DNA of 62,942 nt, taken from positions 1 to 62,942 of the forward strand of contig JABLXL010000050.1 in assembly GCA_013178005.1 (NCBI GenBank). Reading direction: 5' to 3'. Position 1 is the first letter of the stretch. Every line of letters begins with the position of its first letter. Shown piece after piece: positions 6,363 through 60,398 of the stretch. This DNA comes from Actinomycetota bacterium. GTDB taxonomy: Bacteria > Actinomycetota > Geothermincolia > Geothermincolales > RBG-13-55-18. The notes beneath the pieces were generated by a model, which made no database searches, was not told the origin of the DNA, and was given only the letters and a program-made list of their open reading frames with translations. Made by a program: the position numbers and the translations under genes.

Positions 6363-7509
6363 TCAGCCTTCCTCCCAAACCAGATCCTTAAATCCCCTGA
6401 GTTTCCTTCGGGAAAGCTTTTCGTTCTCGGATTTCAAAACGAGGTAGAGGACGGTCAACAGGCTATCTTCCGACGAGAAGACCTCGATGACCCTGCACCT
6501 CCTTTTCACCTCCTTGTTGATCCTCTCCAGCTGGTTGGTGGTGTAGATATAGGGGCGCACCTGCTCTGGATACTTCAAGAAGGCGGTGAGGTGAGGAAGG
6601 TTCTCCCTCCAGTAGCGCACCAGGTGAGGGTAACGCTTCTTCCACGCCTCCTGAAAGGCGGCAAAGGCCTCCTCCGCATCTTTCCCGCTGGAAGCCCCGT
6701 AGATGGCCTTGAGGTCACCTGAGACCTTCTCCCAGTCCCTTATCCTCGCCTTTCTCTGGGAAGCACGCATGGCGTGCACCAAACAGAGCTGGTGGTCGGC
6801 GGAGGGGAAGACCGAAGCCACAGCCTCTTCGATGCCCGGAAGGTCATCGGAGACCACGATGTCTATGCGCTCCAGGCCCCTTTGTTTGAGCTCGGAGAAG
6901 ATCTCGCGCCAGGCGCGAGAGCTCTCCCCCTCACTCCCCATGACCCAGAAACCCAGGATCTCCCGTTCCCCCTCGTGGTCTGTGCCCTGGGCTATGTAGA
7001 CGGGCTCCTTCTTGTAGGATCCTCTCTTCAGGGAGAGAAAGCAGGCGTCTATGTGGAGGGAGAAGTACCTCCTTTTTTAAGGGCCGCATCCTCCATGCCT
7101 CGATCTCTGCCAGGGTCACGCTGGCGAGCCTGGCGATGAGTGCATGGGAGTAATAAGCGCCGTAGTAAAGCTCCAGCACCTGCTGGACCTTTCGGGTACT
7201 GACTCCGCACTCGAAGAGCAGGAGCACAAGGTCTCCCAGGTCTATAGAGGCCCTTCTTCTCCCAGGCAGTATAGCGGGATAGAACTCCCCGGAGCGCGTC
7301 CTGGGCACCCTTAAGTCCTCTATGAGTCCGCTTGAGGTGAGAAGGGAGCGCTCATAGAAGCCGTTGCCCTTGTCTTCTTGGTGTTCGTCCAGGAAGAGCT
7401 CCCTTTCCTCCTCCATGAGCCTCTGCATAATCGCCTTTTCCCTCTGCTTGACCTCTTCCCTTAAACGTGTGACCATTTCCCTTGAAGCGTGCTCATCACG
7501 TTTCGACAT
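6363..7509 (-). pseudogene. IS256-family (mutator-type) DDE transposase, frameshifted
   Basis: Two adjoining minus-strand frames together give the normal length of about 382-400 residues. The N-terminal half runs from ATG at 7509 (MSKRDEHASREM). The C-terminal half contains the DDE-region motifs: SLHIDACF, VVSDDLPGIEEA, HQLCLVHA and YTTNQLERINKEVKRR. The break falls in a run of six A on the coding strand (6 T at 7073-7078). Reading five A there would join the frames as LKRRYFSLHIDA, so a one-base insertion best explains it. It may be a real inactivating mutation, a homopolymer error, or slippage on the A6 run. As written the element is probably not autonomous. Confidence 0.85.
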
Positions 7510-7727
7510 AGCCTTCCTCCTCTCTTCGAGTTTTCCTAGGAGGAAGGCTATTTAATTGCTTTGGTTCTTGTCCAGAGCTACCCAGACACAATTACTTTTA
7601 CGCTACCCGTGCTCATCACGTTTCGACATAGCCTTCCTCCTCTCTTCGAGTTTTCCTAGGAGGAAGGCTATTTAATTGCTTTGGTTCTTGTCCAGAGCTA
7701 CCCAGACACAATTACTTTTACGCTACC
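7488..7727. repeat. Perfect 120-bp tandem duplication at the IS right end
   Basis: Bases 7488-7607 and 7608-7727 are identical. The unit spans the first seven codons of the transposase, its leader and the right terminal inverted repeat. It also contains the hairpin TAGCCTTCCTCC / GGAGGAAGGCTA around 7509-7550. The duplication places two right ends 120 bp apart. Confidence 0.9.
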
Positions 7728-22149: not shown

Positions 22150-23085
22150 ATGGAGAGGATAGCGGTCATCGGCGCGGGACTGATGGGCCACGGCATCGCC
22201 CAGGTGTTCGCGGCGGGCAGCCATGCCGTCTCCCTCATGGACGTAGAGGAGAGGCGGCTCGAGGCGGCCCTTTCCGACATCCGCGACAGCCTCCGCTTCC
22301 TGGCGGAGCACGGCAGCCGCGCGGCCGGGACGGCGGAAGAGGAGGACATAGACGCCGTCGTCTCCAGGATATCCGCCACCACGAGCCTGGAGGAGGCGTG
22401 CGCGGGGGCGGATTTCGTCATCGAGGCCGTCTCGGAGGAGCCGGAGCTCAAGCGGAGAGTCTTCCGCGAACTCGACGCGCTCTGCCCGCCTCCGGCGCTG
22501 CTGGCCACCAACACCTCGGCCATCAGCATCACGGAGATAGCGGGGGAGGCGGCTCACCGCGAGCGCGTGGTGGGGACCCATTTCTGGAACCCCCCGCAGC
22601 TGATCCCCCTGGTGGAGGTGGTCCCCGGCCGGGACACCTCCCCCGCGACGGTGGACCGCGCCTGCGGCCTCCTGCTCGCCGTGGGCAAGCGCCCGGTGCG
22701 GGTGAAAAAGGACGTGCCCGGATTCGTCGGCAACCGACTGCAGCACGCGTTGTGGCGCGAGGCCGTCTCCATCGTGGAGCGCGGCATCGCGGACGCGGAG
22801 ACGGTGGACGAGGTGGTGAAGAGCGGTTTCGGCCTGAGGCTGCCGGTGCTCGGCCCCCTGGAGAACGCGGACATGATCGGCCTGGACCTCACGCTTCAGA
22901 TCCATGAATACCTCCTTGCCCACCTAGAGGATTCCCACCGGCCCTCGCCCCTCTTGAGGAAAAAGGTGGAAAAAGGGGAGAAGGGCTTCTCAAGCGGCAG
23001 GGGTTTCCGGGAGTGGACGCCAGCAGAGATGAAGGCCTGCCGGGAAAGGCTCCGGCGCCACCTGGTTGAATGGGGGGAGAGATGA
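22150..23085 (+). CDS. 3-hydroxyacyl-CoA dehydrogenase family protein
   Basis: 311 residues from ATG 22150 (MERIAVIGAGLMGHGIAQ). An in-frame ATG at 22135 is also possible. The NAD-binding fold GAGLMGHGIAQVFA is followed by TNTSAISITEIA, GTHFWNPPQLIPLVEVV (catalytic His), and KDVPGFVGNRLQHALWREA, which begins the C-terminal domain. The family oxidises 3-hydroxyacyl-CoA, and some members act on free hydroxy-keto acids. The last 30 codons and the following bases are tandemly duplicated downstream. The stop overlaps the next small ORF as ATGA. Confidence 0.92.
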   Translation: MERIAVIGAGLMGHGIAQVFAAGSHAVSLMDVEERRLEAALSDIRDSLRFLAEHGSRAAGTAEEEDIDAVVSRISATTSLEEACAGADFVIEAVSEEPELKRRVFRELDALCPPPALLATNTSAISITEIAGEAAHRERVVGTHFWNPPQLIPLVEVVPGRDTSPATVDRACGLLLAVGKRPVRVKKDVPGFVGNRLQHALWREAVSIVERGIADAETVDEVVKSGFGLRLPVLGPLENADMIGLDLTLQIHEYLLAHLEDSHRPSPLLRKKVEKGEKGFSSGRGFREWTPAEMKACRERLRRHLVEWGER

Positions 23086-23237
23086 GAGTCGAAGCGAGGC
23101 GCCGGGTGGAAATAAAAACCGGCAGGGGTTTCCGGGAGTGGACGCCAGCAGAGATGAAGGCCTGCCGGGAAAGGCTCCGGCACCACCTGGTTGAATGGGG
23201 GGAGAGATGAGAGTCGAAGCGAGGCGCCGGGTGGAAA
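22995..23237 (+). repeat. Tandem duplication (118 bp, period 125) of the dehydrogenase gene 3' end
   Basis: Bases 22995-23112 recur at 23120-23237 with one visible mismatch (GGCGCC versus GGCACC). Each unit holds the last ~30 codons of the dehydrogenase, its stop and the next ~27 bp. The extra copy is read in the original frame by a small ORF that starts on the parent stop codon. Confidence 0.95.
23082..23210 (+). CDS. 42-aa ORF made of the duplicated dehydrogenase tail
   Basis: ATG 23082 overlaps the dehydrogenase stop as ATGA, with GGGGGGAGAG just upstream. The frame reads MRVEARRRVEIKT and then GRGFREWTPAEMKACRER, identical to the dehydrogenase C-terminus, and stops at 23208-23210. It was created by the 125-bp duplication. 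Whether it is translated to a stable peptide is unknown, but the start/stop coupling is intact. Confidence 0.4.
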   Translation: MRVEARRRVEIKTGRGFREWTPAEMKACRERLRHHLVEWGER

Positions 23238-23287
23238 GCGGAAACTGGGATGCCCGGCGCCGCCCGCCGGAAGGGGGAAGGCGATGA
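23207..23287 (+). CDS. 26-aa coupling mini-ORF before the SCP2 gene
   Basis: ATG 23207 overlaps the previous stop as ATGA. The frame reads MRVEARRRVESGNWDARR... and its stop overlaps the SCP2 start, again as ATGA (23284-23287). Before the duplication this mini-ORF would have linked the dehydrogenase directly to SCP2, so it probably serves translational coupling rather than making a functional peptide. Confidence 0.35.
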   Translation: MRVEARRRVESGNWDARRRPPEGGRR

Positions 23288-23784
23288 GCACGCGAGGCCG
23301 GGAGGCGGGGGACGTGACCATCCCCAGAGACCCCCGCGAGCGTGTGGTGGTCGCGGGCGCGGAAGGGCTGCACCTGCTAGGAAGGTTTTTCCAGGCCATG
23401 CTCCTCAACCATCTCAAAGACCCGCGCAAGGTCCGCACCATGGATAAGCTGAACCTGGTGGTGGCGGTGGCTCCACCCGTCCACCGCGATTGCGCCCTGA
23501 CCCTGGCCTTCTCGGAGGGGCGCGTGACCCTGGAGGGCGGCGTCCCGCCGCGCCCGGATGTCGTTCTGGAGGGGGAGCCGGCGATGCTCATGAAGCTGGC
23601 GCGCATGCCCGCCGGGCCGGCGGCCTTGAGGTTCCTCCGGACCCACGAGGGGAGAGCCGTCATCGCCGCCCTGCGCTCGGGCGAGCTGAGGATACGAGGG
23701 GCGGCCAGGCATCCGCTGGGGATGATGAGGTTCGCGCGGCTACTGGCCCCGGGTATCGATCGCCGAAGGAGCGGCCAAGGATGA
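23284..23784 (+). CDS. SCP2 sterol-carrier-like domain protein
   Basis: 166 residues from ATG 23284 (AAGGGGGAAGG upstream). The SCP2-type pattern is visible as LTLAFSEGRVTLEGG, PDVVLEGEPAMLMKLARMP and LRSGELRIRG, then LGMMRFARLL. These domains bind hydrophobic acyl or steroid ligands. Its stop overlaps the ferredoxin start as ATGA, so the genes are tightly coupled. A role in presenting a hydrophobic substrate to the cluster's redox enzymes is a reasonable guess. Confidence 0.75.
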   Translation: MSTRGREAGDVTIPRDPRERVVVAGAEGLHLLGRFFQAMLLNHLKDPRKVRTMDKLNLVVAVAPPVHRDCALTLAFSEGRVTLEGGVPPRPDVVLEGEPAMLMKLARMPAGPAALRFLRTHEGRAVIAALRSGELRIRGAARHPLGMMRFARLLAPGIDRRRSGQG

Positions 23785-23999
23785 ACGCCATACGTATCGA
23801 CCTGGACGGATGCGACGGGTGCAGGGCTTGCGTCAAGGCCTGCTTCGTCAACGTCCTGCGCTGGGACAAGGATGCGAAGAGGCCCGTCGCGGCTTACGCG
23901 GAGGACTGCGTGCACTGCAACCTCTGCGAGCTCTCCTGCCCCAGGGGATGCATCGCGGTCACCCCCGATTTCGAGCGCCTGAGGTGGTCGGCGTGGTGA
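23781..23999 (+). CDS. Small 4Fe-4S dicluster ferredoxin
   Basis: 72 residues with two 4Fe-4S motifs: CDGCRACVKACFVN (CxxCxxxC with an extra Cys) and CVHCNLCELSCPRGC. It overlaps the SCP2 stop by 4 nt and lies 37 bp before the flavoprotein gene. Small ferredoxins of this shape serve AprA/FrdA-type flavoproteins as electron partner (an AprB-like arrangement), which is the likely role here. Confidence 0.9.
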   Translation: MNAIRIDLDGCDGCRACVKACFVNVLRWDKDAKRPVAAYAEDCVHCNLCELSCPRGCIAVTPDFERLRWSAW

Positions 24000-32582: not shown

Positions 32583-32593
32583 TCTGCACTGAG

Positions 32594-32937
32594 GGTCGTA
32601 TCTTTACTTTTTCATCCCGCCGCAGCGGATGGCATAAACCCAACCTCATACCGGAACAAAAAAGTCAAGATACGACCCGGGTTCATACCAGGTCGCATAC
32701 CCGAAGGTGGGGTCGTATCTTTACTTTTTCATCCCGCCGCAGCGGATGGTATAAACCCAACCTCATCCCGGAACAAAAAAGTCAAGATACGACCCGGGTT
32801 CATACCAGGTCGCATACCCGAAGGTGGGGTCGTATCTTTACTTTTTCATCCCGCCGCAGCGGATGGTATAAACCCAACCTCATCCCGGAACAAAAAAGTC
32901 AAGATACGACCCGGGTCAAGATACGACCCCGATCGAT
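32594..32937. repeat. Three tandem 117-bp REP-like palindromic units
   Basis: Units start at 32594, 32711 and 32828 and are almost identical. Each is bounded by GGTCGTATCTTTACTTTTTC and the near-complement AAAAAAGTCAAGATACGACC, so each can fold into a long hairpin with a GC-rich loop. The third is cut short and followed by another GATACGACC pair. The same GGGTCGTATCTT sequence recurs at 55557 and 55639. This looks like a dispersed REP/BIME-type element. Confidence 0.9.
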
Positions 32938-37721: not shown

Positions 37722-40700
37722 TCAGGCGCGGCGTATGCGCAGAACTCCGAGAGCAAGGGCAATCGCGCCCAGCAGCACCAGCATTCCGCTCACCATGAAC
37801 AGCGGCATATAGTCCGCGCCGGTGGCGGGGAGCTGGCCCAAGATCTCCGGCTGCACCTGAGGCGGTACCGGGGGCGTTATCACCTCCGGGGCCACCTCCG
37901 TCTCGAAGTAGTTGAGGAAGTAGCCCTCCGGGTCCACGGCCACGTCGGCGCCCGAGACGACCATAACCGTCAGGCTGGTGGGCGCTTTGCTCGTCATACC
38001 GTCGGGCAGGGGCAGCGCCTCCCTCACCGTGTATTCGCCGGGCTCAAGGTCGCCGAAGAAGTACATGCCGTCATTGCCGTCGATGACGAACTCCCTGAGC
38101 ACCGCGCCGTCCCTCACCAGCTCGATGGTGACGGGGTTGGCGGAGCCGTCCCAGGGATCTTCGCCGGGATCCAGCAAACCGTTGGCGTTGGCGTCCAGGT
38201 ACTTGTAACCGGTGATGGAGCCTAGCCGGTAGTTGAGGAAGAACTCCCCCTCCAGGGCCGTCTCCTGGCCCGATATCACCACCACGCCCGTTATCACCGT
38301 GGAGGCCTTGGTGTAGACGCCCGTATCCAGGACCTCCTCGATGTCGTAGGTCCCGGGCTCCACGCCGGAGAAGGAGAATTTGCCCTCGGCGTCGGTCACC
38401 GCCGTGTCCACGACCTCTTCACCCCGCTTGAGCTGGATGGTGACGCCCTCGAACCCCGGCTCTCCCTCGTCCAGGTACCCGTCGCCGTCCAGGTCCTCGT
38501 ACTTGTGGCCGGTGATGGAGCCTAGCCGGTAGTTGAGGAAGTAATCCTCCTCGAGGGCCGTCTCCTGGCCCGATATCACCACCACGCCCGTTATCACCGT
38601 GGAGGCCTTGGTGTAGACGCCTATGTCCAGCAGCTCCTCGATGTCGTAGGTCCCGGGCTCCACGTCGGAGAAGGAGAATTTGCCCTCGGCGTCGGTCACC
38701 GCCGTGTCCACGACCTCTTCACCCCGCTTGAGCTGGATGGTGACGCCCTCGAACCCCGGCTCGTCCTCGTCCAGGACCCCGTCGCCGTCCAGGTCCTCGT
38801 ACTTGTGGCCGGTGATGGAGCCGTAACGTGCGTTCAGGAAGTCGAGGTCCTCGATGTTCTCTCCACATGCCAGCTCCACGCCGTCGTGGATCCCGTCCTC
38901 CGGAGACACCGGGAACCACTCCTCGAGCTGCTCCTCGGTAAGCGCCTCGACCACGCGGTAGGTGCCCGGCTTGAGCCCGCCGAAGCAGTAGGAGCCGTCC
39001 TCACCCGTGGCGGTCTCGCCCTCGAGGGTCCATTCGCCGTCCTCCAACACCAGGGCTTTGATCGCGTCGTCGCCGTTGGGCTCCACCAGGCGCCACAGCT
39101 GGATCGATACCCCCGCCACCGGGGGCTCGCCCTCGTCCAGGACCCCGTCGCCGTCCAGGTCCTCGTACTTGGCGCCGCAGATGGACCCGTACCGTGCGTT
39201 GACGAAGTTCAGGTCCTCGATATCCTGGCCGCAGGTCAGCTGCAGGTCCTCGTAGGCGCCGCCCTCGGGATAGACGACATACCACTCCTCGAGCTGCTCC
39301 TCCGACAGCACCTCCTTGACGGTGTAGGTCCCGGGCATGAGGTTCCCGAAGGAGTACTCGCCGTTTTCGTCGGTGATATCGCTGTCGAGCATGCCGCATC
39401 CCTGCCAGAGCTCGATGAGTACCCCCGGCACGGGGTTTTCATGGCAGTCGAGCTTGGCCCCGGAGATGGAGAGATACCTGGCGTTCCCGAAATCCACGCG
39501 GTCCGTCTCGCAGCAGCAGAGCCACAGCAGCTTCCAGGTCTCGGTGGTGTGGTAATGGCCTTCCGGCACGGTGGAGGTGTCGAGGACGACCTTGTAAAGC
39601 CCCGGCCACAGGCCCTCGAAGCTGTAGTGGCCTTCCTCGTCCGTCCATGTTTCCCTGACGCCGCATATGGAGAACAGCTTCACGCGCACGCCCGGGATCC
39701 CTTCCTCGCCCTCGTCCATCACCCCGTCGCAGTCCTGGTCCAGGAACTTGTAGCCGTGGATGGTGCCCAGCCGCGTGTTCCCGAACTTGACCTTCTCCTC
39801 CTCGCCGCACTTCAGCTTGACCCAGGCCGGGTTCGGGGTGGTGGGGTACCAGCCTTCTCCCACTATCTCCTTCACCCAGTAATTCCCAGGCTCGAGGCCC
39901 TCGAAGGAGTATGCGCCGTCCTCGTCCGTCACCGCGGTGGCTATGAGGGCCCCATCCCTCCAGAGCTCGATGGTGACGTCCTTCAGCTTGGGCTCGCCGC
40001 AGTCCCACCTGCCGTCACAGTCCTGGTCGTGGAACTTGAACCCGAATATCCTTCCCAGGCGGGCGTTGATGAAGTCGACGTCACAAGCCCAGGGCTTCAT
40101 GCACCAGAGGACCACGCACTGCTCGCCGTCGGCGGGGTTCTTGGCGAACCAGCCTTTCTCCAGAATTTCCTTCACCGTGTACTTGCCCAGCGCCAGGGAG
40201 GCGAAGCAGTATTTCCCGTTCTCGTCGGTGACCGTGGATGCCACCAGCTTACCCTCGGAGTCGTAGAGCTCGATGGCGATGCCGGGAACCGCGGGCTCGC
40301 CCCGGTCGTGCTTCCCGTCGCAGTCCAGGTCCTCCCACTTGGTGCCGCATATCTTCCCGATCCCGGCGTTGCCGAAGTCCACCCTCTCCTCGCCGGCGCA
40401 CCCCAGGGTCACCCAGACGGGGTTGGCCGTGGTGGCGCGGTAGCCGGAGGGGACGACCTCCTTGACCATGTAGCGGCCGGGCATGAGGCCGGTGAAGCAG
40501 TACCGTCCGTTCTCGTCCGTCAGCGTCTCGCCTACCAGGCTAAAGCCCTTCCAGACCTTCCAGAGCTGGATGGCGACATTGGCCATCCCGGTCTCCTGGC
40601 CCTCGTCCCACGAGCCGTCGCCGTCCGCGTCCAGGAACTTATACCCGCAGATCCTTCCGAAGCGGGCGTTGACGAAGTCGAGTCCCGCGATGTCCTGGCT

Positions 40701-41897
40701 TTCAGGCAGGTCCACAGCATAGGAGCCGGACGGAGGGTTTTTCGCGAACCATTCGCTGTCAAGGCCGTCGACGGAAAGGTCCTCCGCCACGGTGTAGCAG
40801 CCGGGTTCCAGCCCCTCGAAGCAGTACTTGCCGCCGTTCGAGGTCTTGGTCCTGGCCACCTCCGCGCCCGTTGCGTCCCTGAGGACGATGGTCACGCCGT
40901 CCACGGTGGTATCGCCGTCGCCGTCGCAGTCCACGTCCTCCCACTTGGTGCCGCATATGGAACCACCGTCGTCCGGGCAGACGCCGAAACAGAAAGTGAC
41001 GTGGCTGATGCCGTAGGTGGGGGTACCCGGCGAGCCCGCTGGCCTGAAGGGAGCGTAAAGCCCCGCGTCGCCGAGGGAGCCGCCGTAGCGGAAGATGTTG
41101 GCGCCCGTCCCTCCCTTGACGATCACGCAGCATACCGGCCACTCGGAAGACCAGTCGAAGGTATAGCCGTTATCGTTGGAGATGGTGATATTGTTTCCAA
41201 CCCCGGTCTCGTAAACACCGTTCATGCTCCCGCACCAGTCGATCTTATAGGCGTACGGGCAGGTGCACCCGGCGTTGGCGCATTCCGCTTGCGCGTTGCC
41301 CGAGGACCAGGGGTCGACGGTTTCCGGCGTCACCGAGGTGTACGGAGATACAACAAGAGGCGAGGCCTCCAGGGACGGTGCCCCGTCACCTGTACTGTCG
41401 CCGTCCACGCTTTGACCGGGCGCGGAAAGAGGGCTTGCCGCCGTGCCGGGAGAGCTCTCCTTGGAGGCGGGCGGGCTTGCGTCCTGCCCCGACTCCATGC
41501 CGGCGCCACCGTCTTCCATTTTTTCAGCGTCCCCGCCTTCAACGGCGGGCGGGGCCTCCTCATCGCCGGCCGCGGGCTCATCGCCGAGGCCTGCGGGGTT
41601 TTCCAGCCCGGCGCCTTCCCCGGGCTCATCGCCCTCGCCGACGTCCTCGCTTCCCTCCTGGCTTTCCCCGCCCTGGGGGTCAAGCGCGTCATCCTCGCCT
41701 TCCGCCTCCAGGACGACTTCCTCCGGTTCCGGTTCCTCCACCCCCGTGCTCGGCGCTGTCTCCTCTATGCCCGACGACACGACTTCGTTTTTCACCGCGT
41801 CGTCGGCTGACGTGGCGGAGATAAGCCCCGATAGGAGGGACAGGAGCAGGAGGGTTATCGTGGCTAGAAGGGCCACGAGTTTTTTAAACGCTTCCAA
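37722..41897 (-). CDS. Large LPXTG surface protein with about ten SdrD_B/Cna-B-like modules
   Basis: 1391 residues. It starts at TTG 41897 behind GGGGAGGTGAGG and has a signal peptide (LVALLATITLLLLSLLSGLI). An acidic/Pro-rich stalk (about 35-190) and a Cys-rich domain (about 200-310, CANAGCTCPYAYKIDWCG) follow. Then come about ten modules beginning with phrases such as GSICGTKWEDVDCDGDGD, GRICGYKFLDADGDG and GSITGHKYEDLDGDG. These are transthyretin-like folds with acidic, calcium-binding-type loops. The C-terminus is a sortase signal: LPATG at about 1356-1360, a hydrophobic span and RIRRA. Modules 8 and 9 are near-identical (300-bp repeat). Likely role: sortase-anchored adhesin. Its leader carries a class II c-di-GMP riboswitch. 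No sortase gene is in the window. Confidence 0.92.
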   Translation of the reverse strand: MEAFKKLVALLATITLLLLSLLSGLISATSADDAVKNEVVSSGIEETAPSTGVEEPEPEEVVLEAEGEDDALDPQGGESQEGSEDVGEGDEPGEGAGLENPAGLGDEPAAGDEEAPPAVEGGDAEKMEDGGAGMESGQDASPPASKESSPGTAASPLSAPGQSVDGDSTGDGAPSLEASPLVVSPYTSVTPETVDPWSSGNAQAECANAGCTCPYAYKIDWCGSMNGVYETGVGNNITISNDNGYTFDWSSEWPVCCVIVKGGTGANIFRYGGSLGDAGLYAPFRPAGSPGTPTYGISHVTFCFGVCPDDGGSICGTKWEDVDCDGDGDTTVDGVTIVLRDATGAEVARTKTSNGGKYCFEGLEPGCYTVAEDLSVDGLDSEWFAKNPPSGSYAVDLPESQDIAGLDFVNARFGRICGYKFLDADGDGSWDEGQETGMANVAIQLWKVWKGFSLVGETLTDENGRYCFTGLMPGRYMVKEVVPSGYRATTANPVWVTLGCAGEERVDFGNAGIGKICGTKWEDLDCDGKHDRGEPAVPGIAIELYDSEGKLVASTVTDENGKYCFASLALGKYTVKEILEKGWFAKNPADGEQCVVLWCMKPWACDVDFINARLGRIFGFKFHDQDCDGRWDCGEPKLKDVTIELWRDGALIATAVTDEDGAYSFEGLEPGNYWVKEIVGEGWYPTTPNPAWVKLKCGEEEKVKFGNTRLGTIHGYKFLDQDCDGVMDEGEEGIPGVRVKLFSICGVRETWTDEEGHYSFEGLWPGLYKVVLDTSTVPEGHYHTTETWKLLWLCCCETDRVDFGNARYLSISGAKLDCHENPVPGVLIELWQGCGMLDSDITDENGEYSFGNLMPGTYTVKEVLSEEQLEEWYVVYPEGGAYEDLQLTCGQDIEDLNFVNARYGSICGAKYEDLDGDGVLDEGEPPVAGVSIQLWRLVEPNGDDAIKALVLEDGEWTLEGETATGEDGSYCFGGLKPGTYRVVEALTEEQLEEWFPVSPEDGIHDGVELACGENIEDLDFLNARYGSITGHKYEDLDGDGVLDEDEPGFEGVTIQLKRGEEVVDTAVTDAEGKFSFSDVEPGTYDIEELLDIGVYTKASTVITGVVVISGQETALEEDYFLNYRLGSITGHKYEDLDGDGYLDEGEPGFEGVTIQLKRGEEVVDTAVTDAEGKFSFSGVEPGTYDIEEVLDTGVYTKASTVITGVVVISGQETALEGEFFLNYRLGSITGYKYLDANANGLLDPGEDPWDGSANPVTIELVRDGAVLREFVIDGNDGMYFFGDLEPGEYTVREALPLPDGMTSKAPTSLTVMVVSGADVAVDPEGYFLNYFETEVAPEVITPPVPPQVQPEILGQLPATGADYMPLFMVSGMLVLLGAIALALGVLRIRRA
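38221..38820 (-). repeat. Two near-identical 300-bp repeats inside the adhesin gene
   Basis: Bases 38221-38520 and 38521-38820 match with few changes and encode modules 9 and 8 of the protein (GSITGHKYEDLDGDG, then GEPGFEGVTIQLKRGEE). The repeat is in frame, so recombination could change the module number. Confidence 0.92.
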
Positions 41898-47581: not shown

Positions 47582-47923
47582 ATGGCGGATGAAAGCGAGG
47601 GGCCGGAACCCCGGCGGCTGACCCTGCGCGTGGACGCCGACCACTGCGCGGAGACGGCGGCCAAGAGGGAATACGCCAGGCTGGCGGAGGAATACCTGCG
47701 AGGGTCGGGGCGGCTCCGCGAGGAGGAGTACGAATACCGGCTCGACCTTCTCAGGGATTTCCTGAAAAACACCGATTTCGCTTCGCTTAGAGCTTTCTGC
47801 GAGAAGCCGCTTCGCGAGGCAGGCCTGCTATCCCTCGTTCTTTTCAGGAACGCGGAGGGAAGGCCCGAATTCACCGTGCTTCCCGGGGAGGTAAGCTGCG
47901 ACCGCGGCAAAGAGGCCCGTTGA
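47582..47923 (+). CDS. Small unknown charged protein
   Basis: 113 residues from ATG 47582. GGAGG lies about 13 nt upstream, which is a long spacing. It is rich in Arg, Glu and Leu with a helical middle (TAAKREYARLAEEYLRGSGR) and a C-terminal strand region (LVLFRNAEGRPEFTVLPGE). Two Cys. No family is recognised. Its last 45 codons are duplicated downstream. Confidence 0.55.
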   Translation: MADESEGPEPRRLTLRVDADHCAETAAKREYARLAEEYLRGSGRLREEEYEYRLDLLRDFLKNTDFASLRAFCEKPLREAGLLSLVLFRNAEGRPEFTVLPGEVSCDRGKEAR

Positions 47924-48075
47924 GCTTGCGTGCATTTGCGGGAAGCCGCTTCGAGAGGCAGGACCACTATCCCTTGTTCTTTTCAGGAACGCGGAGGGAA
48001 GGCCCGAATTCACCGTGCTGCCCGGGGAGGTAAGCTGCGACCGCGGCAAAGAGGCCCGTTGAGCTTGCGTGCATT
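47801..48075 (+). repeat. Diverged tandem duplication (136 bp, period 139) of the gene 3' end
   Basis: 47801-47936 recurs at 47940-48075. The copy differs from the gene mostly at third codon positions (CGC/CGA, GGC/GGA, CTC/CTT, CTT/CTG), with two amino-acid changes. The copied tail keeps its frame and the TGA stop, but no standard start codon lies just before it. A further weak repeat, GAGGACGCGAA, occurs at about 48081 and 48179. Confidence 0.92.
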
Positions 48076-50855: not shown

Positions 50856-51383
50856 ATGAGAGCGAGAACCTCGGTGGCGTTGGCGGTGGCTCTGTTGTGC
50901 CTGGTCATCCTGGCCGCCGGCTGCGGCAGAGGCGGGGAACAAAGCCCTCCCGCGGAGGGGGAGCGCAAGATCGACGTGGAGCAGTCGGGTGAGGGGGGAG
51001 GCGGCAAGGTAACCCTGGAAGGCGAGGAGGGTCAGTCCACCATCGAGGTGCAGGAGGAGGTGCCCAGCGAGGAGTCGTTGGGCGCGCCCATCTACCCCAA
51101 GGCCACGTACGTTCCCGGTAGCGGCGTGAGCGGCAAGACCACCTCTGGCGAGAAGGAGTTCGAGGTATCGGGGGCGGAGTTCACCACCGGCGACAAGCTG
51201 AGCAAGGTCGTCGAGTGGTACAAGACGAAACTCGGGGACCCCGTGTCCGGGGGGAGCGCGGAGACCACCTGGATCTTCCAGGACACGCAGGGCAAGCTCA
51301 CGGCGGTGATCGTGGAGCCCGCTGACGGCGCGGTCAAGATAACCATCGGAAAAGTCAGCGGGGACCTGGACATCAAGCTCTGA
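50856..51383 (+). CDS. Secreted lipoprotein of unknown function
   Basis: 175 residues. ATG 50856 follows TAAGGAG. Lipoprotein signal LLCLVILAAGC with lipobox LAAGC, Cys23. After an acidic, Gly-rich linker there is a compact domain (YPKATYVPGSGVSGK, then DKLSKVVEWYKTKLGDP and KLTAVIVEPADGAVKITIGK), reminiscent of small periplasmic domains that start with a YPxA motif. No enzyme motif. The last 28 codons and 17 bp after the stop are repeated twice downstream. Confidence 0.8.
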   Translation: MRARTSVALAVALLCLVILAAGCGRGGEQSPPAEGERKIDVEQSGEGGGGKVTLEGEEGQSTIEVQEEVPSEESLGAPIYPKATYVPGSGVSGKTTSGEKEFEVSGAEFTTGDKLSKVVEWYKTKLGDPVSGGSAETTWIFQDTQGKLTAVIVEPADGAVKITIGKVSGDLDIKL

Positions 51384-51580
51384 AACGCCGGCGAGGTCTT
51401 GCGGCGGTGATCGTGGAGCCCGCTGACGGCGCGGTCAAGATAACCATCGGAAAAGTCAGCGGGGACCTGGACATCAAGCTCTGAAACGCCGGCGAGGTCT
51501 TGCGGCGGTGATCGTGGAGCCCGCTGACGGCGCGGTCAAGGTAACCACCGCATAGGTCAGCGGGGACCTGGACATCGAAA
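51301..51580 (+). repeat. 101-bp tandem repeat (2.8 copies) of the lipoprotein gene 3' end
   Basis: Units start at 51301, 51402 and 51503 (CGGCGGTGATCGTGGAGCCC). The first two are identical. The third has several changes and gains an early TAG (51553). Copy 2 keeps the original frame from GTG 51407 (or a CTG at 51380 overlapping the stop as CTGA) to the same stop codon. Confidence 0.95.
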
Positions 51581-55556: not shown

Positions 55557-55705
55557 GGGGTCGTATCTTGAATTGTTCCTCGCTTTGCTTACCGAAAGCG
55601 CAAGCCGCGCTGCCACTTCAGCCCGCGCCGCGAATAACGGGGTCGTATCTTGATTTTTTCCTCGCTCCGCTTACCGAAGGCGCAAGCCGCGCTGCCACTT
55701 CAGCC
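55557..55705. repeat. Two 82-bp tandem repeats carrying the GGGGTCGTATCTT motif
   Basis: Copies at 55557-55623 and 55639-55705 start GGGGTCGTATCTTGA and share CGCAAGCCGCGCTGCCACTT. The first 13 bases and the following T-run match the ends of the REP-like units at 32594. The rest of 55706-55990 shows no gene. Confidence 0.85.
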
Positions 55706-55990
55706 TGCACCGCCGGGTGAAGGTCTCGCTCGGCGCGCACGAAGCCTTGAAGGGGACAAGAAACCGCGATAAACGCGCCCTCTCTGCGGCCGACCTGGTT
55801 GTTCCCAAGCAGGAAGCGGAAAACATAGCCCCCCTCTTTTCATTCAGCATGCAGCCACCGCCGATAACGCCTCCCGGGAAGCTGGGTTTGATGTAAGAGG
55901 CACTTGGTCAGGGAACAGCGCTCCTGCCGGAGGGATATGCGCATAGCTTCAGGATCGGCTGCCGGGCGAGAGGGGGCGTACCAATAACTA

Positions 55991-57767: not shown

Positions 57768-58823
57768 ATGGCGCGGCTTCCCGAGTTCCGCGAGGAGCAG
57801 GAGTACAGGATACTGAGGGAGAGCGCGGCCTCCTACGCCGCCAACGAGCTGGCTCCCCAGGCGGAGGAACTGGACCTGGAGCCGGCCGCGTGGAGGGTCA
57901 AGAAGGCCATATCCAAGGCGGGAGAGCTGGGGATGCTCTCCGCCCTGGTCCCCGAGGAAAAGGGCGGGGGCGGGCTGGACGATTACGCCTTCTGCGTGGC
58001 GCTGGAGGAGATAGCGGTGGAGGAAGCCGGCATAGCCGTGGCCCTCCTCGCACACAACGCGGCGCTCCTACCCTCGGCCTTGGGCGAGTTCGAGGGCTTG
58101 ATAACGGGCGTGGGCGCGGAGTCCTACCCCGCCTGTTTGGCCTTTCCGGGGGAGATATCCCTGCGCGACGGAAAGGTGAGCGGAAAGGTGCCCTTCGCCT
58201 TCAACGCCGTGGACTGCCCGTTCATCACCCTCATCCCGACGGATGAGGCGGGGACGCGGGCGGCGACGGTGAGCGCCGACGCGACGGGGGTGAGCGCGGA
58301 GCCGGAGGCCTATCCGCTGGGCCTGCGGGCGGCGTGCCCCGGATCGTTGCGTCTCGAGGGAGCGGAGCCCTCGAACCTGATCTCCGGCGGGAACATGCTG
58401 GAGGCGGTGGAGCGCGCCCTCTACCTGGGGCTCGCGGCGGTGTCGGTGGGGATAATCCGCAATTCCCTTCGCAAGGCCTACGCCTACGCCAGGGAGAGGT
58501 ACCAGGCGGGGAAGATGATCATCGAGCACCAGCAGATGCGCCTCTTCCTGGCGGAGATGCTCGCGGGGGTGGAGGAGGGAAGGTCCCTGGTCAGGGAGGC
58601 CTCCTCGAGCCCGGAGCTCGCGCCCTCCATGATCGCCTGGTTGCGCAACACGGCCAGGGCTTGCCAGGCGGCGACGGACGGGGTGCAGATACACGGCGGC
58701 TACGGTTACATGCGCGATTACGGCATGGAGCGCCTGATGCGGGATGCCAAGTACTGCCAGATGTATCCATCCACCAGCCAGGAGGCGCTGCTGCGCCTGC
58801 TGGACATGTCCGAGACCGGGTGA
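57768..58823 (+). CDS. Acyl-CoA dehydrogenase family protein (short form)
   Basis: 351 residues, adjoining the previous gene. REEQEYRILRESAASYAANE, LGMLSALVPEEKGGGGLDDYA, and the C-terminal RYQAGKMIIEHQQMRLFLAEM and IHGGYGYMRDYGMERLMRDA are present, but the central FAD loop (TEPxxGSD) is not recognisable. It may be the structural partner of the 491-residue protein in a heteromer. The final stretch of the gene is repeated just after its stop. Confidence 0.88.
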   Translation: MARLPEFREEQEYRILRESAASYAANELAPQAEELDLEPAAWRVKKAISKAGELGMLSALVPEEKGGGGLDDYAFCVALEEIAVEEAGIAVALLAHNAALLPSALGEFEGLITGVGAESYPACLAFPGEISLRDGKVSGKVPFAFNAVDCPFITLIPTDEAGTRAATVSADATGVSAEPEAYPLGLRAACPGSLRLEGAEPSNLISGGNMLEAVERALYLGLAAVSVGIIRNSLRKAYAYARERYQAGKMIIEHQQMRLFLAEMLAGVEEGRSLVREASSSPELAPSMIAWLRNTARACQAATDGVQIHGGYGYMRDYGMERLMRDAKYCQMYPSTSQEALLRLLDMSETG

Positions 58824-58957
58824 AGTGGCGTGGGCACGGATACATGCGCGATTACGGCATGGAGCGCCTGATGCGGGATGCCAAGTACTGCCAGATGTAT
58901 CCATCCACCAGCCAGGAGGCGCTGCTGCGCCTGCTGGACATGTCCGAGATGGGCTGA
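58707..58957 (+). repeat. Tandem duplication (117 bp, period 134) of the dehydrogenase gene 3' end
   Basis: 58707-58823 recurs at 58841-58957, identical except in the last two codons before the stop (ACCGGG versus ATGGGC). Confidence 0.95.
58820..58957 (+). CDS. 45-aa ORF consisting of the duplicated dehydrogenase tail
   Basis: GTG 58820 overlaps the parent stop as GTGA. After MKWRGHG the frame reads YMRDYGMERLMRDAKYCQMY and on to a TGA at 58955-58957, the same reading as in the dehydrogenase. Stop/start coupling could allow its translation. Function, if any, is unknown. Confidence 0.4.
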   Translation: MKWRGHGYMRDYGMERLMRDAKYCQMYPSTSQEALLRLLDMSEMG

Positions 58958-59132: not shown

Positions 59133-60398
59133 ATGGACGACGTTTACATCATCGGCGTGGGTATGTTCCGTTTCGGGAAATATCCCGAAAAGAGCGTCAA
59201 GCAGATGACGCAGGAGGTGCTGGAGAGCCTGCTCGCGGACTGCCCGGCGGAGAAGAAGGATATCGAGGCGGCCTGGTTCTCCAACTCCTTCTGGGGTATC
59301 GTGACGGGACAGCACAGCATCCGCGGACAGGTGGCTCTCACTCCCCTGGGGATCCAGGGCATACCGGTTATGAACGTGGAGAACGCCTGCGCCGGCGCCA
59401 CCAGCGCCCTCAACGGCGCATACCTCGGCATAAAGGCAGGGGCTTACGACGTGGCGTTGGCCATCGGGGTGGAGAAGATGTACAACCCCGAGAACAAGCA
59501 GGCCATGTTCGAGATGTTCATGTCCAACACCGACGTGGAATTCATCCGCGGCATCCTGGAGGCCTTCAAGGCCGACGAGCAGAGGAAGGCCGCCGAGGCG
59601 GCCGCAAAAGGCGAGGGTGCCGCCAAGAGCGGGGGCGAAGGCGGGAGGTCGCCTTTCATGGATATCTACGCCATGGCCGCGCGCATGCACATGGAGAAAT
59701 ACGGCACCACGCAGCGGCAACTGGCGGTGATCGCCGCCAAGAACCACTACCACGCCTCCCTCAATCCCCTGGCGCAGTACCAGGTGGACATGTCGGTGGA
59801 GGAGGTGCTCAACGACCGGCCCGTGGCATTCCCCCTCACCCGCGCCATGTGCGCGCCCATGGGAGACGGCGCCACCGCCGCCCTGCTCTGCTCGAAAAAG
59901 GCCCTCAAGCGCTTCCCCGGCGCGCGGCCGGTGAAAATACTCGCTTCCGTCCTCACTTCTGGAAGCATCCCGGAAGGGGGAGCGATGGACCTCATCGGGA
60001 CGCGATTGAGCAAGCAGGCATACGAGATCGCCGGGGTGGGGCCGGAGGATATAGACGTGGCCGAGGTGCACGACGCCACCGCCTTCGGGGAGCTGCTGCA
60101 GACGGAGGAACTGGGATTCTGCGGTGAGGGTGAGGGAGGCCCGTTCGCCGAGTCGGGGGCCACAAAGCTGGGCGGCAAACTGCCGGTGAACACCTCCGGA
60201 GGACTCGAGTGCCGCGGCCACCCCATCGGAGCCTCGGGGATAGCCCAGATCGTGGAGCTGGTGACCCAGCTCCGAGGGGAGGCCGGAAAGCGCCAGGTGG
60301 AGGGGGCCAGGCTGGCGCTGGCGGAGAACGGCGGCGGCTTCATCGGCACCGGCGAGGCCGCCATGTGCATCCACATCCTCGAACGCGTCGATAAATGA
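59133..60398 (+). CDS. Thiolase (SCP-x / acetyl-CoA acyltransferase-like)
   Basis: 421 residues from ATG 59133, AAGGAGG upstream. Catalytic Cys in VMNVENACAGATSALNGAY, then DVAEVHDATAFGELLQTEEL, GGLECRGHPIGASGIAQIV (His) and ALAENGGGFIGTG. This pattern belongs to the SCP-x-like thiolases, which split 3-ketoacyl-CoA in breakdown of long or branched chains and steroid side chains. An insertion of about 40 residues (AFKADEQRKAAEAAAKGEG) is unusual. Monocistronic, with its own operator. Confidence 0.93.
   Translation: MDDVYIIGVGMFRFGKYPEKSVKQMTQEVLESLLADCPAEKKDIEAAWFSNSFWGIVTGQHSIRGQVALTPLGIQGIPVMNVENACAGATSALNGAYLGIKAGAYDVALAIGVEKMYNPENKQAMFEMFMSNTDVEFIRGILEAFKADEQRKAAEAAAKGEGAAKSGGEGGRSPFMDIYAMAARMHMEKYGTTQRQLAVIAAKNHYHASLNPLAQYQVDMSVEEVLNDRPVAFPLTRAMCAPMGDGATAALLCSKKALKRFPGARPVKILASVLTSGSIPEGGAMDLIGTRLSKQAYEIAGVGPEDIDVAEVHDATAFGELLQTEELGFCGEGEGGPFAESGATKLGGKLPVNTSGGLECRGHPIGASGIAQIVELVTQLRGEAGKRQVEGARLALAENGGGFIGTGEAAMCIHILERVDK

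Follow-up and report, generated by a model that had tools for sequence, protein, structure and literature searches.

The closest known system to the locus described here is that of the mycobacterial MIRUs. Their description (PMC12548453) presents them as short repeats with a small open reading frame (ORF) set at a -4 spacing to the neighbouring gene, so that coupling survives the insertion, and as one dispersed, apparently mobile family. The present locus lies in a window consisting of the whole 62,942-nucleotide contig JABLXL010000050.1 of assembly GCA_013178005.1, a genome coded G000 whose congeners are coded G001 and G002. Three ATGA stop-start overlaps at positions 23082, 23207 and 23284 join in series a 3-hydroxyacyl-CoA dehydrogenase gene, an ORF of 42 amino acids, an ORF of 26 amino acids and an SCP2-like gene. 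The resemblance to MIRUs resides in these small ORFs joined to their neighbours by -4 overlaps. Unlike MIRUs, the 125-bp unit concerned is formed by the tail of the dehydrogenase gene beside it, copied by local tandem duplication and not inserted from elsewhere, and it does not belong to a dispersed family: a genome search with it returned its own two copies plus four short matches at chance level (E 0.03 to 0.39), and no other copy. The chain of mini-ORFs arose by tandem duplication of the junction between the dehydrogenase stop and the SCP2-like start.

Two further systems invite comparison. As in usual termination-reinitiation coupling, the locus has ATGA overlaps of co-directional genes with a Shine-Dalgarno (SD)-like sequence upstream; the predicted coupling would differ in running through two extra mini-ORFs. 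As in bacterial minisatellites, or variable number tandem repeats, the arrays of G000 and G002 consist of units of about 100 bp repeated in tandem, in about 2 to 7.5 copies and located mostly between genes. Here most of the arrays contain about two copies and are found outside genes, with a preference for gene 3' ends. Literature searches found no paper on duplicated stop-start junctions, and among the papers listed by searches on minisatellites, partial gene duplication and tandem duplications with filler, none has the pattern in its title or opening abstract lines. When a tandem duplication spans a stop-start overlap, operon genes can stay coupled, and with a period of 2 modulo 3 the relay forms by itself.

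The dehydrogenase gene (22150-23085, forward strand like the other members of the chain; Pfam 3HCDH_N, E 4.5e-62, and 3HCDH, E 1.7e-23) has its TGA stop at 23083-23085, inside the first ATGA. According to the ORF list and translations, the 42-residue ORF runs from the first to the second ATGA (23082-23210) and the 26-residue ORF from the second to the third (23207-23287); both frames also open 12 bases earlier at an ATG, which gives 46 residues from 23070 and 30 residues from 23195. Tandem Repeats Finder reports a single array at 22995-23237 (period 125, 1.9 copies, 99%), that is, near-identical tandem units as in a minisatellite. Copy 1 (22995-23112) comprises the dehydrogenase tail and the probable former SCP2 leader. 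It is separated by a 7-bp spacer, TAAAAAC (23113-23119), from copy 2 (23120-23237), which is 118 bp long and has one mismatch to copy 1; these limits come from repeat finding and copy alignment. The 42-residue ORF is an in-frame repeat of the dehydrogenase C terminus, GRGFREWTPAEMKACRERLRHHLVEWGER followed by the stop, with one residue different. A sequence-only reading of this DNA had described the three successive overlaps through two mini-ORFs and the in-frame repeat, and had proposed that the duplication made the mini-ORFs and carried the coupling along; the analysis agrees with it on these points, the repeat spanning the stop-start junction. Stop-start overlap by itself is not rare in G000, and it is the repeat that lies far beyond chance. 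Of 543 genes called in a 697-kb sample of G000, 194 have ATGA, GTGA or TTGA at their end (58 have ATGA), and at 115 of the 543 gene ends such an NTGA is followed in the -1 frame by an ORF of 26 codons or more. Genes were called with a simple in-house caller, whose 5' ends are less certain than its 3' ends.

The stretch after copy 2 (23240-23305, forward strand) is probably a third, decayed copy of the junction, whose end would be the ATGA at 23284. Aligned to copy 2 with ATGA on ATGA, it has a local score of 35, which is reached by 15 of 1000 dinucleotide shuffles and by 4 of 4925 stretches drawn at random from the window. The peptide ends compared are RRRPPEGGRR for the 26-residue ORF and RRHLVEWGER for the dehydrogenase, both followed by the stop. 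If this copy is real, all three ATGA are copies of one ancestral junction.

The undivided junction is found in relatives. A search for the gene pair in G000 and 58 relatives found it adjacent in four further genomes, which belong to two genera (G014, G012, G010 and G006). The single-unit version that had been suggested for comparison is present in all four orthologous pairs, in which the dehydrogenase and SCP2-like genes overlap directly and have no mini-ORFs between them (GTGA in G014, ATGA in G012, 14 nucleotides in G010 and G006). The four SCP2-like proteins have 18 or 19 residues before a conserved RERLVV, QERLVV, RGRLVV or RGILVI, and the protein of the window has 17 when counted from 23284. 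Because these N-terminal lengths are alike, 23284 is probably the old, original start of the SCP2-like gene. Retention of the direct overlap in four relatives suggests that coupling matters for this pair. The pair was not found in either congener (G001, G002), where the matches were weak and to the dehydrogenase part alone. The downstream gene (23284-23784) is 55-60% identical to its orthologues in the four relatives, and its name is poorly backed: the Pfam SCP2 match is weak (E = 0.0064, 17.2 bits against a cut-off of 21.3), equally weak in three of the four orthologues and missing in the fourth. It is joined in turn by an ATGA (4-nucleotide overlap) to a 4Fe-4S ferredoxin-like gene (23781-23999, forward strand; Pfam Fer4, E 8.8e-10).

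The spacings between successive ATGA are 125 and 77 bp, both 2 modulo 3, and each mini-ORF ends on the next overlap because of this remainder. We favour an account in which the ancestor had a direct overlap of the dehydrogenase stop with the SCP2-like start and a tandem duplication of about 100 bp crossed the junction once recently (the 125-bp unit) and probably once earlier (the decayed third copy). Each copy would contain the tail and stop of the dehydrogenase together with the former SCP2 start that overlaps this stop. The frame opened at a copied start would run into the next copied dehydrogenase tail and close on the next overlap, forming a relay to SCP2. Ribosomes finishing the dehydrogenase could then re-initiate at successive ATGA, so that the insertion would be tolerated with coupling little reduced, the mini-ORFs being by-products or passive relays and not genes. 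This account of junction duplication, register and passive relay builds on the observed duplication, its registers, the direct overlap in relatives and the many similar duplications of G000, and we consider it likely as a whole.

A purine-rich, SD-like sequence stands just upstream of all three ATG, with GGAAGGGGGAAGGCG before the ATG at 23284. Re-initiation is therefore possible at every step, and so is direct initiation of SCP2. The sequence-only reading had suggested that SCP2 translation may depend on ribosomes that pass through the mini-ORFs; a translational relay through them is plausible, while a need of SCP2 for it is hypothetical. The 91-nucleotide RNA around each ATG folds no better than shuffled sequences (z -0.05, -0.09 and 0.31), and an RNA structure hiding the SCP2 start is rejected, there being no unusual fold at any of the three ATG. 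With SD-like sequences at all of them and no special fold, nothing points to an occluded start. The same observations sustain the best surviving alternative, to which we give somewhat less than an even chance: the origin would be the same, the duplication would simply have been tolerated between genes, initiation at SCP2 would use a Shine-Dalgarno sequence of its own, and the mini-ORFs would be neutral debris without effect. This alternative differs from the passive relay in the last step only, and the odds of the two overlap. It draws further on the commonness of NTGA gene ends with a following ORF (the 115 of 543 given above) and on the registers, which are not clearly enriched: of the arrays outside interspersed families in G000 and G002, 15 extend over a gene 3' end, and these divide 7/4/4 among remainders 2, 1 and 0, so that the attempt to detect selection on register gave an unclear result. 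It fits less well with the relay register held by both spacings and with the direct overlap retained in four relatives.

Several points weigh against the favoured account. The third copy is suggestive, 15 of 1000 shuffles reaching its alignment score. Without clear enrichment of 2 modulo 3, the relay register may be luck, the odds being 1 in 3 for one duplication and 1 in 9 for two. The relay would be dispensable, since the mini-ORF starts and SCP2 each have an SD-like sequence. G000 is a draft of 98 contigs, and the copy number is that of the assembly. The congener G001 is poor in tandem arrays, so their abundance is not common to the whole genus.

Eight tandem arrays of the window have a period of 82 or more, and one of these lies within a gene. 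Besides the array at 22995, three on the forward strand are gene-tail duplications, placed by repeat finding, copy alignment and gene position. These are found at 47798-48075 (period 139), at 51301-51576 (period 101, 2.7 copies) and at 58702-58949, where the tail of an acyl-CoA dehydrogenase gene is duplicated with a period of 134 and a 20-bp spacer. The 51301 site is single-copy in G002 and the 58702 site in G001, which makes both duplications recent. The idea of clean junctions throughout is rejected, as several two-copy arrays carry a spacer: 7 bp at 22995 and 20 bp at 58702, with none at 7488 and 47798. The sequence-only reading had seen a parallel to the coupled junction in a GTGA at 58820. 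This one does not hold: it falls inside the spacer (58816-58835) between the acyl-CoA dehydrogenase tail copies, the next called gene begins only at 59133, and the orthologue ends differ (CTGA in G001, CTAA in G012, CTAG in G014 and TTGA in G006), one of the four having a stop-start overlap of its own. The GTGA is at chance level, given the frequency of comparable NTGA ends among the 543 genes, and is no evidence for coupling.

Arrays were counted in sampled genomes with a filter that required a period of 50-200, 1.8 copies or more and a match of at least 85%. The filter left out weaker scores and longer periods (300 bp at 38199 of the window, 321 bp in L040, 333 bp in L088 and 219 bp at L090 7616), and a 99-bp array of G001 from later sequence (L226 3309-3498) stands outside the counts. 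The 219-bp array of L090 may itself be a gene-tail copy. The 697-kb sample of G000 has 37 non-genic arrays (5.3 per 100 kb) and two in genes; 300 kb of G002 have 16 non-genic arrays, again 5.3 per 100 kb, and none in genes. A single non-genic array is present in 280 kb of G001 (0.4 per 100 kb), and four in 931 kb from 19 genomes outside the genus (0.43 per 100 kb), three of them in 140 kb of G012. Two of the three sampled genomes of the genus thus have about twelve times more non-genic tandem arrays than the sampled genomes outside it. According to a survey of prokaryotic satellites (PMC6749651), very few are present in most species at a threshold of four repeats; of non-genic arrays with at least four copies and a period of 50-200, there are none in the G000 sample and two in that of G002. 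G002 has intergenic arrays at L045 7159-7718 (6.6 copies of an 85-bp unit) and L048 7726-8271 (7.5 copies of a 73-bp unit).

A unit sequence common to all arrays is rejected. One interspersed family accounts for 12 of the 37 non-genic G000 arrays, forming larger clusters elsewhere in that genome beyond the sampled arrays, and a group of related units for 4 of the 16 in G002. Among the other 25 G000 units, 22 have no match elsewhere in the 697-kb sample; two further pairs of G000 arrays share 20-27 bp. The 27 G000 arrays outside the interspersed family cover 3' ends only in ten cases, a 5' end only in one, both in two and neither in twelve, with two inside genes; the 12 arrays of G002 cover a 3' end only in two cases, both ends in one and neither in nine. 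Under random placement, in which one unit at a time is positioned whereas real arrays are classified over their full extent, 68% fall in genes, 7.0% touch 3' ends only and 6.5% touch 5' ends only. Arrays inside genes (2 of 27) are far below this expectation (p 6e-11), and 3' ends exceed 5' ends by 12 to 1 when G000 and G002 are pooled and both-end arrays omitted (binomial p 0.003), both values resting on the in-house gene calls. The 3' bias may reflect selection against duplications that copy start regions, or a genuine preference for 3' ends as targets.

This distribution bears on a second alternative, an assembly artefact in which contig ends or strain variants were joined and their overlap was not collapsed. 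The draft state of G000 would allow it, and the non-genic periods in the G000 sample do not exceed 146 bp, near a common short-read length. Such errors should mostly hit genes, yet only two of the 27 arrays do, both with periods that are multiples of three; the avoidance of gene interiors fits selection on real duplications and not assembly error, and the excess of 3' over 5' ends likewise speaks against an artefact. Spacer lengths differ among arrays, G000 has arrays of 2.5 to 3 copies, and G002, a separate assembly of 30 contigs, reaches 6.6 and 7.5 copies and periods up to 173 bp. We regard the artefact as very improbable. Insertion of a MIRU-like mobile repeat with its own ORF at the SCP2 start codon is scarcely credible for a unit that is the local dehydrogenase tail and has no other copy found in the genome.

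Beyond the local duplication and passive relay, a broader proposal is that in the lineage comprising G000 and G002 a mutational process continually produces tandem duplications of about 100 bp, which are retained between genes and at gene 3' ends, and that junctions copied in register become self-propagating relays of coupled mini-ORFs. We hold this to be rather unlikely; if true, such relays would offer a way for new small genes to arise and for the coupling of operon genes to be tuned. The array-rich genomes are in any case a natural system for how duplications form and how gene ends tolerate them. A profile search of 15 genomes of the family did not find Ku (PF02735) in G000, G001 or G002, which makes classical end joining unlikely, and Ku-dependent joining is rejected as the cause. 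Ku was found in four of the 15: G012, with three non-genic arrays in 140 kb, and G014, G007 and G003, with none in their samples. MutS_V was found in G001 only (two matches, G001:C15:19070-21021). Loss of MutS is not a sufficient cause, as the nine sampled genomes of the family outside the genus without a MutS_V match have 0 to 3 non-genic arrays. G001, the sole genome of the 15 with MutS_V, is the congener with few tandem arrays. The number of Y1 transposase matches makes no distinction, with two each in G000 and G002 against 0 to 3 in the other 13 genomes.

Other repeats occur in the window. A perfect 120-bp tandem duplication (100%) lies at 7488-7727 with no called gene within 150 bp, and a large minus-strand gene (37722-41876) has an internal repeat with a period of 300. 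The segments 32593-32916 and 55557-55713 belong to an interspersed family that has inverted ends (GGGTCGTATCTT ... AAGATACGACCC). A genome search with the unit at 32593 gives 83 matches, of which many form tandem clusters of up to eight and some lie at or near contig ends.
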